Program-made: the position numbers and the translations under genes
NCBI GenBank assembly: GCA_001787535.1
Contig: MFXP01000004.1
Span: 174,652 to 238,651 of the forward strand
Direction of reading: 5' to 3'
From: Candidatus Peribacteria bacterium RIFCSPHIGHO2_01_FULL_51_35
GTDB lineage: Bacteria; Patescibacteriota; Gracilibacteria; Peribacterales; Peribacteraceae
DNA: 64,000 nucleotides
The notes under the pieces: generated by a model
Told to the model about the DNA's origin: nothing
The model's database searches: none
Seen by the model: only the letters and a program-made list of their open reading frames with translations
Shown here: piece by piece, positions 43,273 through 50,320 of the stretch
Layout of the letters: each line of letters starts with the position of its first letter
Position numbering within the stretch: position 1 is the stretch's first letter

Positions 43273-44127
43273 ATGACATTTCTTCTCCACGTCATCGCCA
43301 TTACGGCAATGAGCGCGCCTCATATCCTGGGATATAATCTTATCTTGGGAAAAGGGAAGATTCTGCACTTCGGACCGCTGGGGACATCCATCATTGCAAG
43401 CTATGTCACGTTTCTGGTCACCATGACTTTTTCGAACTATTTTCTCGGACTCCTTGCGGGGCTGGTTGCCGTTGTTGCGGTTTCTTCTCTCTTTGCATGG
43501 ATAAGCTTTCGCATGGAGCCAGATGGCTTTGGTGTGATGTCCATTGCCATGCATTTGTCGTTCTTGGCCGTTGTTCTGAACTGGCATTCTGTCACGCGCG
43601 GCGCACTGGGCATTCCCCGTGTTCCTCGATTTCCTTTTCTGGAAACGCCGGCTGATTTTGCTCTGTTTGCCGTCGTCATAGTCGTTCTTTGGATCGCTTT
43701 TCTCTGGGTGCTGGATCGCGGATCCTACGGGCGCAAGCTTGCGGCGCTTTCGGAGCAGGAATGGCAGGCAAAATCCCTCGGCATAGACCGTCGCACGGTG
43801 CACTGGGTTGCATTCGTAGTCGTCGGTCTTGGAGCACTGCTCACCAATATTCAATTTCATCAGTATATATTTCTGGTGCATCCCAATGATTTCAATTTTG
43901 CGTACTTGATTTTCATGATCATGGTTGTGGTTGCCGGAAAACCGGGAAGTATTTTTGGATGCGTGCTTTCACTCATTCTGCTCTCCTTTTTACGCGAAGG
44001 AATTCGTTTTCTGCCGTTGGATGCGGATGTCCTGGGACCGCTGCGGTTGATCATTTTTGGAGTTATTCTTTTAGGAGTCGTTTATTGGCGCAGAGATGTG
44101 TTGTTTCCGAAACCGAGAAGCATCTGA
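43273..44127 (+). CDS. livM: Branched-chain amino-acid ABC transporter permease (LivM-type)
   Basis: A 284-residue permease partner of LivH. It begins MTFLLHVIAITAMSAPHILGYNLILGKGKILHFGPLGTSIIASYVTFL and contains the ATPase-contact segment SEQEWQAKSLGIDRRTVHWVAFVVVGLGALLTNI, followed by the C-terminal YLIFMIMVVVAGKPGSIFGCVLSLILL. It starts three bases after livH and is surely co-transcribed. Shorter than many LivM proteins. Confidence 0.9.
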   Translation: MTFLLHVIAITAMSAPHILGYNLILGKGKILHFGPLGTSIIASYVTFLVTMTFSNYFLGLLAGLVAVVAVSSLFAWISFRMEPDGFGVMSIAMHLSFLAVVLNWHSVTRGALGIPRVPRFPFLETPADFALFAVVIVVLWIAFLWVLDRGSYGRKLAALSEQEWQAKSLGIDRRTVHWVAFVVVGLGALLTNIQFHQYIFLVHPNDFNFAYLIFMIMVVVAGKPGSIFGCVLSLILLSFLREGIRFLPLDADVLGPLRLIIFGVILLGVVYWRRDVLFPKPRSI

Positions 44128-44140
44128 GCGATCAATAGAC

Positions 44141-44199
44141 TCAAAAGGAGCAGGCATGCTTGCCTGCGATACGCGGCCAGGTATGGCCGCTCCTTTTGA
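44141..44199. repeat. Cruciform-like nested palindrome before pyrD
   Basis: The outer arms TCAAAAGGAGC and GCTCCTTTTGA enclose two smaller palindromes, GCAGGCATGCTTGCCTGC and GCGGCCAGGTATGGCCGC. The three-stem layout differs from the simple hairpins elsewhere. It ends a few bases before the pyrD -10 box (TACACT, 8 nt before the ATG). Confidence 0.88.
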
Positions 44200-44218
44200 T
44201 GGTGTACACTTTCCTTCG

Positions 44219-45190
44219 ATGAATCTCACTCAGACCATCCTTGGGGTTGAATTCTCCAACCCAACTGTTCTTGCATCAGGAATCATGGGAATCACTGCTT
44301 CCAGTTGGAAATTGTGTGCCAAAAACGGAGCAGGGGGCATCACAACCAAGTCTCTCTGGCTCAAAGAACACAAAGGGCATGCAAATCCCACGATCATTTC
44401 CACGGATCATTGGACACTGAACGCCGTGGGCGTGCCGGATGCAGGACCGGAGAAAGCAAAAGAAGAAATCGGGAGTTTTATGAAGGGCAAGCCTGTGCCG
44501 CTGATCGCAAACATCATCGCGGAATCAGTCGAAAACTTCGCGAAGACTGCGGAAGCTATCTTGCCGCTCAAACCCGACTTCCTAGAAGTGAATATCAGCT
44601 GCCCAAACGTGGAAGATGAATTTGGACGGCCTTTTGCGTGCTCCGCACCGGATGCAGCTGCCGTCACAAAAGCAGTGAAGGCTGTCAGTGGTAAAACGCC
44701 TGTCTTCATCAAGCTTTCCCCAAACGTGGATAATATCGGTGTCATTGCAATCGCATGTGCAAAAGCAGGAGCGGATGGATTTACTGCCATCAACACGGTC
44801 GGTCCCGGCATGGCGATCGACCTGAAAAGCCGCATGCCGATTCTTGCGAACAAAGTGGGAGGACTCAGCGGTCCCGGTATCAAGCCTATTGCCGTGAAGT
44901 GCATTGCAGATGTGTACGCTGCAACCGAAGGCAAACTTCCCATCATCGGCACAGGCGGCGTCTACACCGGCGAAGATGCCATCGAACTGATGCTTGCCGG
45001 AGCCTCGCTCATCGGCATTGGCACCGCAGTCGGCGACCGCAATGTGGATGTCTTTAAGAAGATCTGTGAAGAGATGCAGCTTTGGTGCACGAACGAAGGA
45101 GTGGAAAACGTTTCCGATCTTGTCGGAGCCATGCATCAGGAGCTGAAGAAGCGTGGACTCAAGGGTGTGAGGAAAGTGTCTGTATCTTAA
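44219..45190 (+). CDS. pyrD: Dihydroorotate dehydrogenase, class 1B catalytic subunit
   Basis: A 323-residue FMN enzyme that oxidises dihydroorotate to orotate. FMN and substrate motifs: NPTVLASGIMG near the start, EVNISCPNV with the catalytic Cys of class 1, VFIKLSPNV, GGLSGPGIKPIAVKCI, IIGTGGVYTGEDAIELMLAGAS. Class 1B works with the FAD/2Fe-2S protein PyrK and NAD+; pyrK follows at 45636, separated only by an S23 gene. I chose the ATG at 44219, the usual family start; the upstream frame reads through the palindrome. Confidence 0.95.
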   Translation: MNLTQTILGVEFSNPTVLASGIMGITASSWKLCAKNGAGGITTKSLWLKEHKGHANPTIISTDHWTLNAVGVPDAGPEKAKEEIGSFMKGKPVPLIANIIAESVENFAKTAEAILPLKPDFLEVNISCPNVEDEFGRPFACSAPDAAAVTKAVKAVSGKTPVFIKLSPNVDNIGVIAIACAKAGADGFTAINTVGPGMAIDLKSRMPILANKVGGLSGPGIKPIAVKCIADVYAATEGKLPIIGTGGVYTGEDAIELMLAGASLIGIGTAVGDRNVDVFKKICEEMQLWCTNEGVENVSDLVGAMHQELKKRGLKGVRKVSVS

Positions 45191-45635: not shown

Positions 45636-46508
45636 ATGCCCATTCCACTCCAATCTCGGCTCCCCAAAACTTTTAGGATCAAAGCCATCAAGCAAGAGAC
45701 GGAAATGGTGCGTACATTCACGTTCGATGGATCTCTCGGCGCGAAACCCGGGCAATTTGTCATGGTTTGGCTTCCCGGAGTCGACGAAGTGCCCATGAGC
45801 GTGGCAGAAGATGACGGCGCTGTGACAAAAATCACGTTCTTCGCCGTCGGTGGCATGACGGAGGAACTTGCCAAGAGCAAAGTGGGGGACTTGGTCGGAC
45901 TCCGCGGACCGTTCGGAACCTTCTACGAGTGGAAACCCGGCGAACACATCGTCCTCGTAGCAGGCGGCTACGGCGCTGCACCCATGTATTTCGTCGCCAA
46001 AGAATCCGTGGAGCACGGCTGCACGATGGAAGTGATTGTCGGAGCGCGCGGCAAAGAGCATCTTCTGTACTTGGAAGAACTGGAATCTCTGCCGCATGTT
46101 TCGCTCCACGTAGCGACCAATGATGGCTCTGTCGGACACAAAGGATTCAACACCGAAGTGCTCGAGAAATTATTAGAGGCCTGCAATAGTTCGGTAGGTA
46201 AGGGAGGTAAGGTAAGTAAGGGAGGGAAGAAAAATGAGATCGATCCGATCACCTCTGTCTTCGCATGCGGACCTGAGATGATGCTCAAGCGCGTGTCGGA
46301 GATCACGGCACAGTACAAAGTTCCATCGCAGCTTTCCCTTGAGCGCTATATGAAATGCGGCTACGGACTCTGTGGCAATTGCGTGGTCGATCCGCTGGGC
46401 ATCCGCCTGTGTACGGAAGGTCCCGTCGTCAAAAACGACCAATGTGTAAAGATCGAAGAGTTCGGCAAATACCACCGGGATGCGTTGGGGAAGAAACACG
46501 AATTTTAG
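45636..46508 (+). CDS. pyrK: Dihydroorotate dehydrogenase electron-transfer subunit
   Basis: A 290-residue ferredoxin-reductase-like protein that passes electrons from PyrD to NAD+. FAD part: KPGQFVMVWLPGVDEVPMSVAE; NAD part: IVLVAGGYGAAPMYFVAKE and FACGPEMMLKRV; C-terminal [2Fe-2S] site CGYGLCGNCVVDPLGIRLC. A short low-complexity insertion (about residues 188-202, VGKGGKVSKGGKK) is encoded by a GGTAAGG word repeat at 46193-46230, which looks like an in-frame expansion. It converges with nothing and is followed by a terminator-like hairpin. Confidence 0.92.
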   Translation: MPIPLQSRLPKTFRIKAIKQETEMVRTFTFDGSLGAKPGQFVMVWLPGVDEVPMSVAEDDGAVTKITFFAVGGMTEELAKSKVGDLVGLRGPFGTFYEWKPGEHIVLVAGGYGAAPMYFVAKESVEHGCTMEVIVGARGKEHLLYLEELESLPHVSLHVATNDGSVGHKGFNTEVLEKLLEACNSSVGKGGKVSKGGKKNEIDPITSVFACGPEMMLKRVSEITAQYKVPSQLSLERYMKCGYGLCGNCVVDPLGIRLCTEGPVVKNDQCVKIEEFGKYHRDALGKKHEF

Positions 46509-46533: not shown

Positions 46534-46842
46534 AAACAAAACCGTCGTCCTTTTGAGGGGAGCGGCGGTGTTTGTTTTGATCACCGAGTGATAGAGACAG
46601 TGAAGTCAGGTATCAACGATGACCACTACAGTATAGCAAACTTTACATCATTATTCAATAGGCTTTTTCATGAACTACAAACGAATATTTAAATAATGCG
46701 CGAAGACCGGCTATGCCGGACTGGAGCGCAACCTCTTAAGGGAAGGGTGGGTCCATGGGAGGGACACCGTAGGTGGTCCTCCCATGCTTAAAAACAAAAC
46801 CGCCTACCTTTTGATTGGTGGACGGTGTTTGTTTTGATCACC
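46534..46842. repeat. Two direct copies of a bidirectional-terminator-like hairpin with a stem-loop between
   Basis: 46534-46584 and 46792-46842 are ~51-bp direct copies of AAACAAAACCG...CGGTGTTTGTTTTGATCACC, each a hairpin with A-rich and T-rich flanks. After each comes a related stretch ACTAC...TATAGCAAA. Between them at 46754-46786 is a strong hairpin (CATGGGAGG...CCTCCCATG). No gene is seen in 46509-46900. It isolates pyrK from the CIRCE-controlled unit. Confidence 0.75.
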
Positions 46843-46914
46843 CTTTGTACGATTGCTCGACACATTGGATGACTACTATATTATAGCAAATTTTATACTT
46901 TTTGCAATATCCAA

Positions 46915-46941
46915 TTAGCACTCATCTATAGAGAGTGCTAG
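46915..46941 (+). promoter_or_regulatory. CIRCE operator (HrcA binding site)
   Basis: TTAGCACTC (46915-46923), nine bases, GAGTGCTAG (46933-46941). The consensus is TTAGCACTC-N9-GAGTGCTAA, so 17 of 18 positions match. The right half overlaps the -35 box of the promoter at 46939, so HrcA would block transcription until heat shock. Confidence 0.93.
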
Positions 46942-46966
46942 ACAGCGGTCTTACGCTGTGTATACT
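46939..46966 (+). promoter_or_regulatory. Promoter of the Gly/Cys microprotein gene
   Basis: TAGACA (46939-46944), a 16-nt spacer and TATACT (46961-46966). It starts inside the CIRCE right half and lies about 28 nt before the ATG at 46995. Confidence 0.8.
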
Positions 46967-46994
46967 CAATACGTTATTTCTTTACCCACAATAT

Positions 46995-47045
46995 ATGTTT
47001 GGTGGTGGTTCCGGCGGAGGATGTGGAGGTTCCTGCGGTTGCTAA
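46995..47045 (+). CDS. 16-residue Gly/Cys microprotein under CIRCE control
   Basis: The frame encodes MFGGGSGGGCGGSCGC and then TAA. Three Cys (positions 10, 14, 16) and ten Gly leave little fold; metal or metal-cluster binding or a modified peptide is possible. The unit is complete: CIRCE operator, promoter, short leader, this frame and an intrinsic terminator, with nothing else coding on the ~130-nt transcript. The transcript could instead be a regulatory RNA that happens to hold this frame. No Shine-Dalgarno is present. Not recognised. Confidence 0.55.
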   Translation: MFGGGSGGGCGGSCGC

Positions 47046-47073
47046 TCGCAGGGAGCCATTTCTCTCCCCTAAG

Positions 47074-47110
47074 AAAGGTGTTCCGCGATGCGGGACGCCT
47101 TTTCTTTCGT
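47074..47110 (+). terminator. Intrinsic terminator of the microprotein unit
   Basis: AAAGG-GTTCCGC, loop GAT, GCGGGAC-CCTTT with one bulge, then TTCTTTCG. It ends the CIRCE-controlled transcript about 30 nt after the stop codon. Confidence 0.85.
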
Positions 47111-47138
47111 GTCATGTCGGATCAATTCGCGATTCCAA

Positions 47139-47813
47139 TCACTTATTTTTCTGAGAGCCGTACGTTCCAGGTGAAATCAGGACGATGATGCGGAGGAGCA
47201 GTGCGGCGGCGATGATGATCGCAGCCACGAGGCTGATGGGCAGCAATCTTCCCGGCCACGTTGCAGGCTTCAACCATCCTTCCAAGCCCATCGTAATCAC
47301 ATGAAGCAGTACGAGTGTGAGGCCAGCATATCCCAGCCGCTGCACGAACTGCCATTGATCCACTTTCAGCGAAGCCGCGATGGAAGGCAGAGATGTGAGA
47401 GCGACTGCCGTGAAGATCAGAAGCGAAAATATGCCAAACACCATCGACAATTCTCCGGTCACATTCAGCGTTCCATCGGCCAGGAAAAATTTTGGATAGT
47501 TGGCGGGCGTGAAGAGCAGGAGCGACATCAACCCGTGGACGGCGCCCAGGCCGAAGCCGAGCAGCCCGAAGAATTTTCGTGCCGGCAGCAGAGGAACCAT
47601 CGTTTGCGGCCAAAAGCGCGCGAGAGGCCCAAGCATGTACGACAGCGCTATGAACGCCACGGATGCCAATGCTATGGCTTTGTTGGAAATGAACAGGGGA
47701 AAGTGCTCCCATGCCACGCCTTTGATGATGTTGTATCGGATTGCCGCATAGAGAAATGTGCCCGCCAGCACCGTTACGGTGATTGTTTGCTGTGTACGTT
47801 GGAAAAGCGGCAT
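47139..47813 (-). CDS. Ferric-reductase-like transmembrane protein (MsrQ-like)
   Basis: A 224-residue protein with six or seven membrane helices in the ferric reductase-like transmembrane layout. Candidate haem ligands are His in LGFGLGAVHGLMSLLLF and in AGLTLVLLHVITMGLEGW. It starts MPLFQRTQQTITVTVLAGTFLY. Such proteins pass electrons across the membrane, as MsrQ does for a periplasmic methionine sulfoxide reductase; no MsrP partner is in the window. Function is inferred from topology only. Confidence 0.65.
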   Translation of the reverse strand: MPLFQRTQQTITVTVLAGTFLYAAIRYNIIKGVAWEHFPLFISNKAIALASVAFIALSYMLGPLARFWPQTMVPLLPARKFFGLLGFGLGAVHGLMSLLLFTPANYPKFFLADGTLNVTGELSMVFGIFSLLIFTAVALTSLPSIAASLKVDQWQFVQRLGYAGLTLVLLHVITMGLEGWLKPATWPGRLLPISLVAAIIIAAALLLRIIVLISPGTYGSQKNK

Positions 47814-48500: not shown

Positions 48501-48575
48501 GGCCCCATCGTCTAACGGTTAGGACAGCGGGTTTTCAATCCGCTAACGGGAGTTCGATTCTCCCTGGGGCTGCCA
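48501..48575 (+). tRNA. tRNA-Glu (TTC), CCA encoded
   Basis: Acceptor GGCCCCA/TGGGGCT (first pair G-T), D-arm GTCTAACGGTTAGGAC, anticodon stem GCGGG/TCCGC with loop TTTTCAA giving TTC, T-arm GGGAGTTCGATTCTCCC, G, CCA. TTC reads GAA/GAG. The recombinase gene on the other strand ends inside it, at 48535, so this tRNA looks like the attachment site of the island to its right. Confidence 0.95.
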
Positions 48576-50097
48576 ACTTGTTTGGAGCAGATGCAACTTC
48601 CTCCATTGCCTTGTACACAAGCGAAATCTCCGGGGTTCGCTTATTCTCGAGCGAGTCGTAGTGGATTCCGACCGGAAAGATGAGCGTCTGCAGCCGGTCT
48701 TGGTCTTCCACGGGCGACTTCAACCACAGTTCGCTTGCGTGCTTCATGTAGTAACTGCAGTAGTTCAGCACCATCTCCGCGTCATATTCCTCAATTTCAC
48801 GCTCATTGCGTTCGCTCGTGATCGCCTTGAGCTGCCGGTCTGCCGTATCGAATTCAATCTGCAGACTCTCGAGGAGTGATGGGCTACCTGTAGCAGATTT
48901 CATGAGATCGATGATCTTTTTCTTTTCCTCGCGCAGCTCCACCACCTTTTTGCTCAATTCGATGTTCTCCCGATTCAGCTCCTGATAGGTGTTGCTCCAC
49001 ACATCCATCACAATCTCGTTGAAGAGCGCGAGGAGCTCATCGGTCGGCTTCACCTTTTGTACGTACCGCAGGAATTTCTTTTGCGCGTCTTTCGGTTTCA
49101 CGCGGAAGCCGCAGGTCTTGTTCGAGCAGTCATAGTAACCGTAGAGCTGTCCCAGCTTTCCCCGAGATGCACCGCCGCGCGCCGGTGTCCCGCATCTTGG
49201 ACATCGAAGGAACCGGCGCAATGGAAAATCCGAATTGAGTCTGTGTCGTCGTTTGCGAAGAGGTGTTGTAGATTTCTTTTCACCATCGATCACGCGCTGC
49301 AGGGTATGCCATTCATCCGAAGTGATCGCGCCTTTCCACTTAGCGTTAATCAATCTGTTCTCTGTCCATTTTTCCCGGTTCATGCCGCCATAGACCGGGC
49401 TTCGGCATATTTTGTGCCAGCTCTGCGCCGTCATGGGCTTGCCGGTTTTTGTTCGCAGTCCTTTCTTTGCAAGTTCGCGGACGAGCGTCGCGGGTACAGC
49501 ACCGGCTAATTGTTTCCGCAGACCGTAGCAAAGTAGCTCCCATTGTTTCTCATCGAGTGTCGGAGCGAGGCAAGGGCGCTTCCCCTGCGGTGTATCCACC
49601 CGCATGTTCCGGAAGCCTGTGGGAGCGGCACGGCACCAGTACCCCTGCTTGGTCATCTCAACCTCCGAGGAGATCGTGCGCTCGACACGGACGCGGTTCT
49701 CCAAACGTGCGAAGACAGCGAGCAGCCCCTCCATTGCCTCGCCACTCGGAGTGCCATCGATGCGCTCGCTTGCTGATTCAAGACGGATTCCCACCTTCGC
49801 CAGCATCGATTTAAGCTGGAAGTATTCATGGACGCCGCCACGAGAGAAGCGATCTACTTTCCAGATGATAACAACTTGGACAGCGCCTTTCTGCCGGATC
49901 ACCCACTCGAGCACTTCGATATACGTGTGCCGCTCTTCCACCTTTGATGCCGTTTCTGCCACCTCGAATTCCCGGACGATCTTGTAACCCTTTTCGGCGG
50001 CGTATTTTCTGTTTTGCTCCCGTTGATTCGGGATGCTCTCCCCCTCCAATTGTCGCTTCGAGGAGACCCGGAGGATAGAGACGGCATTATTCTGCAT
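48535..50097 (-). CDS. Large serine recombinase
   Basis: A 520-residue site-specific recombinase. The N-terminal resolvase fold begins AVSILRVSSKRQLEGESIPNQREQNRKYAAEKGYKIV with the catalytic Ser in RVSS, followed by WKVDRFSRGG and the C-terminal zinc ribbon (FLRCPRCGTPARGG...YYDCSNKTCGF) and coiled coil (residues ~360-430). I chose MQNNAVSIL at 50097, the standard family start; MARYNPD at 50166 would overlap the upstream small gene. The last 14 residues (KLAAPGRIELPLAD) are read from the complement of the tRNA 3' half, so the gene's end depends on integration into the tRNA. Confidence 0.9.
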   Translation of the reverse strand: MQNNAVSILRVSSKRQLEGESIPNQREQNRKYAAEKGYKIVREFEVAETASKVEERHTYIEVLEWVIRQKGAVQVVIIWKVDRFSRGGVHEYFQLKSMLAKVGIRLESASERIDGTPSGEAMEGLLAVFARLENRVRVERTISSEVEMTKQGYWCRAAPTGFRNMRVDTPQGKRPCLAPTLDEKQWELLCYGLRKQLAGAVPATLVRELAKKGLRTKTGKPMTAQSWHKICRSPVYGGMNREKWTENRLINAKWKGAITSDEWHTLQRVIDGEKKSTTPLRKRRHRLNSDFPLRRFLRCPRCGTPARGGASRGKLGQLYGYYDCSNKTCGFRVKPKDAQKKFLRYVQKVKPTDELLALFNEIVMDVWSNTYQELNRENIELSKKVVELREEKKKIIDLMKSATGSPSLLESLQIEFDTADRQLKAITSERNEREIEEYDAEMVLNYCSYYMKHASELWLKSPVEDQDRLQTLIFPVGIHYDSLENKRTPEISLVYKAMEEVASAPNKLAAPGRIELPLAD

Positions 50098-50146
50098 ATC
50101 GCCAACACATTGCTCGTCTTGGCGGATTTTGCAACGTCTGTAGACG

Positions 50147-50320
50147 TCAGGGTTGTACCTTGCCATGGGGAGGGGTGGGGAATTTGTCTGGATGCTCGCG
50201 GACATAGGAATCAACGAGCAGTGTTGCGAAGCTGTAGAGCGTGTCTCGAATTTGCGTGACGTCGTCTTCCGACATGGACGGTTGTTTCAGTACCCGGCGG
50301 CAGCGTTCTATGCTCAACAT
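50147..50320 (-). CDS. Small recombinase-associated protein
   Basis: A 57-residue helical protein, MLSIERCRRVLKQPSMSEDDVTQIRDTLYSFATLLVDSYVREHPDKF and a short tail. This ERCRRVL...IRDTLYSFA pattern is common in small proteins encoded directly before serine recombinases in related genomes (from memory). It is 49 nt before the recombinase start and on the same strand. Function unknown; it may be a recombination-direction or immunity factor. Confidence 0.65.
   Translation of the reverse strand: MLSIERCRRVLKQPSMSEDDVTQIRDTLYSFATLLVDSYVREHPDKFPTPPHGKVQP

Follow-up and report, generated by a model that had tools for sequence, protein, structure and literature searches.

Downstream of pyrD and pyrK, the window (the whole 64-kb stretch of DNA that was analysed) holds a short transcription unit composed of a predicted CIRCE operator, a promoter, a pyrimidine leader, a 16-codon gene and a terminator (Table 1). 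The true start of pyrD probably lies within the ORF given. A sequence-only reading of this DNA had described a near-perfect CIRCE overlapping the −35 box of a good promoter, with MFGGGSGGGCGGSCGC as the sole coding content before a clear terminator, and both points were borne out. The CIRCE inverted repeat TTAGCACTC-N9-GAGTGCTAA is matched at the promoter at 17 of 18 positions: the site reads TTAGCACTC-ATCTATAGA-GAGTGCTAG, with a 9-nt spacer and a single mismatch. It is the only site with three mismatches or fewer in the window, none being found in 100 window shuffles, and genome-wide a single further site, 5′ of hrcA, has an intact core. The −35 and −10 hexamers are separated by 16 nt and match 10 of 12 consensus positions. 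Steric block of the promoter by CIRCE-bound HrcA is the established mechanism of this regulator, and the overlap of the operator with the −35 box implies that HrcA bound here would repress in the same way.

The frame running from ATG 46995 to TAA 47045 is the only coding-like one between promoter and terminator. A longer mechanical ORF (46958-47188) overlaps the gene; its start lies 5′ of where transcription probably begins, and it gave no indication of being conserved. Folding of the RNA 46973-47115 beat that of 200 shuffles (z −4.2), the terminator hairpin being one of its two main stems. By sequence comparison, the stretch 46915-47103 forms a self-contained unit with one gene and belongs, by motif, to the predicted HrcA (heat-shock) regulon. 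The next gene in the window 3′ of the unit (47139-47813) is on the minus strand; also near the unit, a 559-aa ORF on the minus strand (48535-50214) resembles a serine recombinase. Paired terminator-like hairpins upstream had been thought to isolate the unit. They turned out to lie in a stretch of about 110 bp that is duplicated locally (46534-46645 and 46792-46895). The duplicated stretch occurs nowhere else in the genome and lies outside the conserved unit; the proposed isolation is incidental.

Table 1. Features of the unit and of the genes upstream of it in the window
Feature	Coordinates	Strand	Basis or remark
pyrD, dihydroorotate dehydrogenase	44096..45190	+	Pfam DHO_dh 1.3e-70
pyrK, dihydroorotate dehydrogenase electron-transfer subunit	45636..46508	+	Pfam DHODB_Fe-S_bind, NAD_binding_1
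CIRCE operator (predicted HrcA site)	46915..46941	+	17/18 positions; same position in 35 family genomes
−35 hexamer TAGACA	46939..46944	+	overlaps right CIRCE arm
−10 hexamer TATACT	46961..46966	+	28 nt between hexamer end and ATG
Pyrimidine leader TTTCTTTACCC	46977..46987	+	without Shine-Dalgarno
Microprotein gene MFGGGSGGGCGGSCGC, 16 codons + TAA	46995..47045	+	family-wide frame, composition, third-position changes
Intrinsic terminator GAAAGGTGTTCCGC-GAT-GCGGGACGCCTTTT then CTTTC	47073..47103	+	hairpin prediction

Distribution of the unit and evidence for coding

We scanned 74 genomes of the family Candidatus Peribacteraceae for a CIRCE followed by an ATG and a Cys-Gly codon pair. This pattern matched 26, and wider patterns matched more. 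After inspection of the DNA, the full architecture was recognized in 34 units from 33 genomes, and reading the DNA 3′ of pyrK added G030 and G071, giving 36 copies in 35 genomes from 18 genera. Each unit consists of CIRCE, a −10 box, a pyrimidine leader without Shine-Dalgarno sequence, an ATG, a Gly/Cys frame of 9-29 aa, a stop and a terminator. The check on relatives that the sequence-only reading had proposed was thereby carried out with a positive outcome: their CIRCE is followed, within about 60 nt, by an ATG and a Gly/Cys frame of fewer than 30 codons. In nearly all members TAGACA or TTGCGA/TTGAGA overlaps the CIRCE, with a promoter spacing of 15-18 nt, and the distance from the −10 box to the ATG is 24-35 nt in 34 of 34 units. 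The last 20 nt of the leaders are on average 86% pyrimidine, with a motif resembling Shine-Dalgarno in none of 34 units. Of 47 members, 44 have a hairpin resembling a terminator 3′ of the stop, compared with 9% of shuffled sequences. The family, class and 380-genome phylum-sample searches yielded no match to the reversed control pattern.

The reading frame is distinguished by composition and by substitution pattern. Translated in frame, the family peptides contain 44% Gly and 24% Cys (68% together), while in the other two frames each residue makes up only 0-3% (1-3% together), and 29 stops interrupt one of these frames. In DNA alignments of ten disjoint within-genus pairs, picked by hand and summed, differences at codon positions 1, 2 and 3 numbered 45, 34 and 80, a surplus at third positions such as a coding frame should show. 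Low-complexity peptide alignments can shift, so that pairs picked by peptide identity constitute weaker evidence than these within-genus DNA alignments. The cleanest pair, G081/G083, differs at three third positions without any effect on the amino-acid sequence, whereas outside the frame its leader differs at 15 of 46 positions and its terminator region at 17 of 69. Relatives retaining the CIRCE next to a broken frame, which the earlier reading had raised as an argument against a gene, were not found among the units. Taken on the DNA evidence, the reading of 46995-47045 as a real gene is supported and upheld. No groEL or hrcA remnant, the other case raised, was seen at the unit. A groEL/hrcA relic is rejected because hrcA, dnaK, groES and clpC stand elsewhere in the genomes, many with a CIRCE of their own.

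The peptide extends further than its operator. A Gly/Cys or Cys-tailed peptide was found in 47 genomes out of the 74 in the family, representing 24 of 40 genera, and it stands near pyrK wherever the contig covers that region. Besides the 35 genomes with the CIRCE unit, these 47 include 11 in which the peptide lies beyond pyrK without CIRCE and one (G076) in which the CIRCE is decayed. The pair pyrD-pyrK, on the same strand, is usually just 5′ of the unit, and pyrK adjoins it in most members. Similarity clusters of mechanical ORFs gave pyrD, pyrK and liv transport genes as recurrent neighbours; in these clusters no metal-transport gene was recognized near the units. Similar frames away from pyrK in G002, G094 and G017 are weaker members. 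Mapped onto a PyrK tree, the CIRCE state appears in each of the two deep groups and takes 10 changes to explain, compared with a shuffled mean of 18.8. This spread and change count are compatible with CIRCE control being old and lost several times, possibly with gains as well.

Two departures from the usual arrangement were observed. Acidic variants, MWFDDEDEAEEVTEEVVETTESSEDADCGCC and MDYSSLFDDGDGCGCGSAHGDDSAAPAAEEATEEASE, are found at L320 (G007) and L360/L368 (G094, G017), and are tied to the Gly/Cys members through N-terminal FDD and CGC motifs. Contig G096:C35 (L185) carries a locally duplicated pair of microprotein units, one at 69314 and the other some 3.9 kb away at 73175, where it adjoins a partial pyrK copy.

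Outside the family, 279 genomes of the same class gave seven pattern matches and no convincing unit, as judged from the matched stretches alone; some of the seven resemble dnaK or zinc-ribbon starts. In the 380-genome phylum sample, matches occurred in family members only. A GTDB scan with one genome per species returned at least 117 matching stretches. Once the matches listed were translated, the Gly/Cys microproteins among them all came from Peribacteria; what remained were groES, hrcA and further ordinary genes, or frames that arose by chance. Absence of the unit outside Candidatus Peribacteraceae is therefore supported among the matches listed, but not completely.

The predicted HrcA regulon and an alternative palindrome

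CIRCE/HrcA is familiar from textbooks as a switch for chaperones. Of the 74 family genomes, 68 encode HrcA, and in the window genome it was identified by PF01628 (G000:C18:4972-5373, 3.6e-19) with its own CIRCE upstream. CIRCE also precedes hrcA, dnaK, groES, clpC, clpB and hsp20 in family genomes. Since the same operator stands before these classical heat-shock genes, the microprotein is predicted by motif to belong to the HrcA regulon of Peribacteraceae as an ordinary member. It resembles the known regulon (groESL, dnaK, hrcA, clp genes) in its operator, in the overlap with the promoter and in the presence of HrcA and classical targets in the same genomes; it differs in that known targets are chaperones, proteases or regulators, whereas here the product would be a Gly/Cys peptide of 9-29 aa. 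The titles and abstracts of the literature searched contained no CIRCE/HrcA target of this kind, nothing relevant that links CIRCE to small cysteine-rich proteins or HrcA to metallothionein, and no earlier description of the microprotein family.

Two further observations concern this regulon. At G096:C35:25305 (L187) a CIRCE lies 5′ of an Hsp20-like gene. The genes dnaK, groES, clpC, clpB and the microprotein gene all have short pyrimidine-rich leaders directly before the ATG, without Shine-Dalgarno sequence, which is an unusual initiation context common to heat-shock genes of the family.

In five genomes (G004, G085, G086, G019 and G079; L338-L342), the peptide gene 3′ of pyrK carries, between −35 and −10 and in the place of CIRCE, the palindrome TTAGTTYAGTNCTAAACTA. 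The 20-bp palindrome TTAGTTTAGTACTAAACTAA occurs there with one or two mismatches and in one copy per genome, and its carriers form two distinct groups on the PyrK tree. Neither CIRCE nor this palindrome accompanies the peptide 3′ of pyrK in G069, G021, G033, G091, G089 and G007. We take the palindrome of the five CIRCE-less genomes to resemble the DtxR consensus, and control by DtxR was proposed on that likeness. A search for DtxR-family proteins (PF01325) found none in G004, G085 and G086 and a single weak match below the cut-off each in G019 and G079, and the proposal was set aside since no DtxR-family protein scored above the cut-off in these genomes. The motif TTAGTTTAGTACTAAACTAA was absent from the titles and abstracts of the literature on Patescibacteria LexA.

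Peptide composition and candidate functions

The peptides contain few hydrophobic and few charged residues; F/W/Y account for about 5%. A CC, CxC or CxxC motif is present in 45 of 47, and Cys residues are concentrated in the C-terminal half (138 versus 41). Cys number and spacing vary between members, so that composition is conserved and individual residues are not. Variants that bear His and are rich in CxC exist, and MSDGHCNCLGGGRCNCKKCNCS and MGNGGTCGCGSNKCAACGGCLTCGTCTCGTKK, the latter away from pyrK, look like metallothionein. Comparison with Pfam, NCBIfam and PDB sequences gave no match of weight and no metallothionein, these being very short queries of low sensitivity.

Our preferred interpretation, which we regard as probable, is that this unit of the predicted HrcA regulon encodes a very short metallothionein-like buffer of metals or thiols, made when HrcA leaves its operator. 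HrcA on CIRCE would cover the −35 box and keep transcription off. Once proteins misfold and HrcA is inactivated, an mRNA of about 130 nt would be made for the 16-aa Gly/Cys peptide. On its flexible Gly chain, Cys thiolates in CC, CxC and CxxC arrangements would coordinate ions of soft metals (Cu, Zn, Cd or the like), namely those freed or turned harmful in proteotoxic stress, and the peptide may additionally serve as a thiol reductant. The operator, promoter, frame and terminator, their conservation and the motif-based place in the regulon can be read from the sequence comparison; HrcA binding, induction by heat, translation and a metal or thiol function are what we infer for the unit. Among the functional options put forward by the sequence-only reading, a metal buffer appears the best.

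The proposed buffer can be compared with several known systems. The bacterial metallothioneins SmtA, PmtA and MymT, of about 50-80 aa, are likewise small and Cys-rich; the microproteins are shorter and have no metallothionein match in Pfam or NCBIfam. PmtA is described as a stress protein (PMC11237414). Short fungal copper metallothioneins such as those of Neurospora crassa and Agaricus (26 residues, 7 Cys; PMC4755600) are of comparable size, are likewise very rich in Cys, and have CxC pairs with small residues in between. They differ from the microproteins, in which Cys number and spacing are unfixed, CC is frequent, length goes down to 9 residues and no homology is measurable. Metallothionein families with fixed Cys patterns likewise contrast with the microproteins. 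As for regulation, the yeast metallothionein gene CUP1 is activated by heat shock factor, a general heat-shock regulator (Silar 1991, as listed in PMC1929147). This offers an analogy of circuit only, between a eukaryotic activator and the bacterial repressor HrcA, with unrelated sequences.

The count of only 2-3 Cys in 21 of 47 peptides argues against a metal cluster, being few unless several peptides share one. Metallothioneins are moreover poor in aromatics, against an F/W/Y share of about 5% here, and the lack of a recognized metal-transport gene in the neighbouring ORF clusters also counts against a metal function. The low Cys count in some members and the drifting Cys spacing make a simple thiol peptide the strongest competing explanation, although we consider it rather unlikely. 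Such a ribosomally made redox buffer or reductant would replace glutathione-like small thiols and protect in heat or oxidative stress, metal binding being secondary. Variable Cys number and spacing in a loose Gly background is more in keeping with a thiol pool than with a fixed site for metal, and heat-shock control agrees with it; the nearly universal CC, CxC and CxxC pairs, however, are typical metal ligands, and the His-bearing, CxC-rich variants also speak for metal binding. A factor of the chaperone system, binding DnaK, GroEL or HrcA and tuning for example the recovery of HrcA, would account for the operator held in common with hrcA, dnaK, groES, clpC and clpB. We judge it improbable: the peptides offer no constant sequence as a binding motif, and they persist in 12 genomes in which CIRCE is lost or decayed.

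Marginally less credible still is a RiPP precursor whose Cys/Gly core would undergo cross-linking or cyclisation by the products of genes at other loci. RiPP precursors often have short, variable Cys/Ser/Gly cores, but here Gly/Cys begins at the first residues without a leader peptide, and no recurrent modifying enzyme was noted among the ORF clusters beside the units, where enzymes elsewhere in the genome would escape notice. The terminator directly 3′ of the short frame could also suggest a heat-induced small RNA or an attenuation leader, its frame being incidental or merely sensing Cys/Gly-tRNA. The third-position excess, the frame-specific composition and the in-frame length changes make this very improbable, as do terminators that differ in sequence while the character of the peptide stays the same. 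Relatives with a broken frame but a conserved RNA structure were not seen, and in the window the opposite orientation of the next gene leaves nothing to attenuate. A lone 16-codon frame would be unremarkable, and chance next to a relic CIRCE might produce one; this explanation, to which we give next to no credence, is refuted by the recurrence of the peptide across the family together with its frame-specific composition.

A broader reading, which we hold to be as likely as not, is that encoded metal/thiol peptides of 9-29 aa are a permanent branch of the heat-shock regulon of ultra-small bacteria and a bacterial counterpart of heat-shock-controlled metallothionein. Selection would then act on Cys/Gly composition rather than on residue order, and some genera would have placed the peptides under one or more other operators. 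Should the peptides bind metal, they would rank with the shortest metal-binding peptides known. Annotation likely misses them, as they fall below the usual gene-calling limits. The heat-shock switch of Peribacteraceae appears, from its predicted operators, to serve both chaperones and a tiny Gly/Cys peptide that may grab metals. A conserved non-chaperone target of CIRCE/HrcA would show further needs of reduced cells when their proteins misfold.
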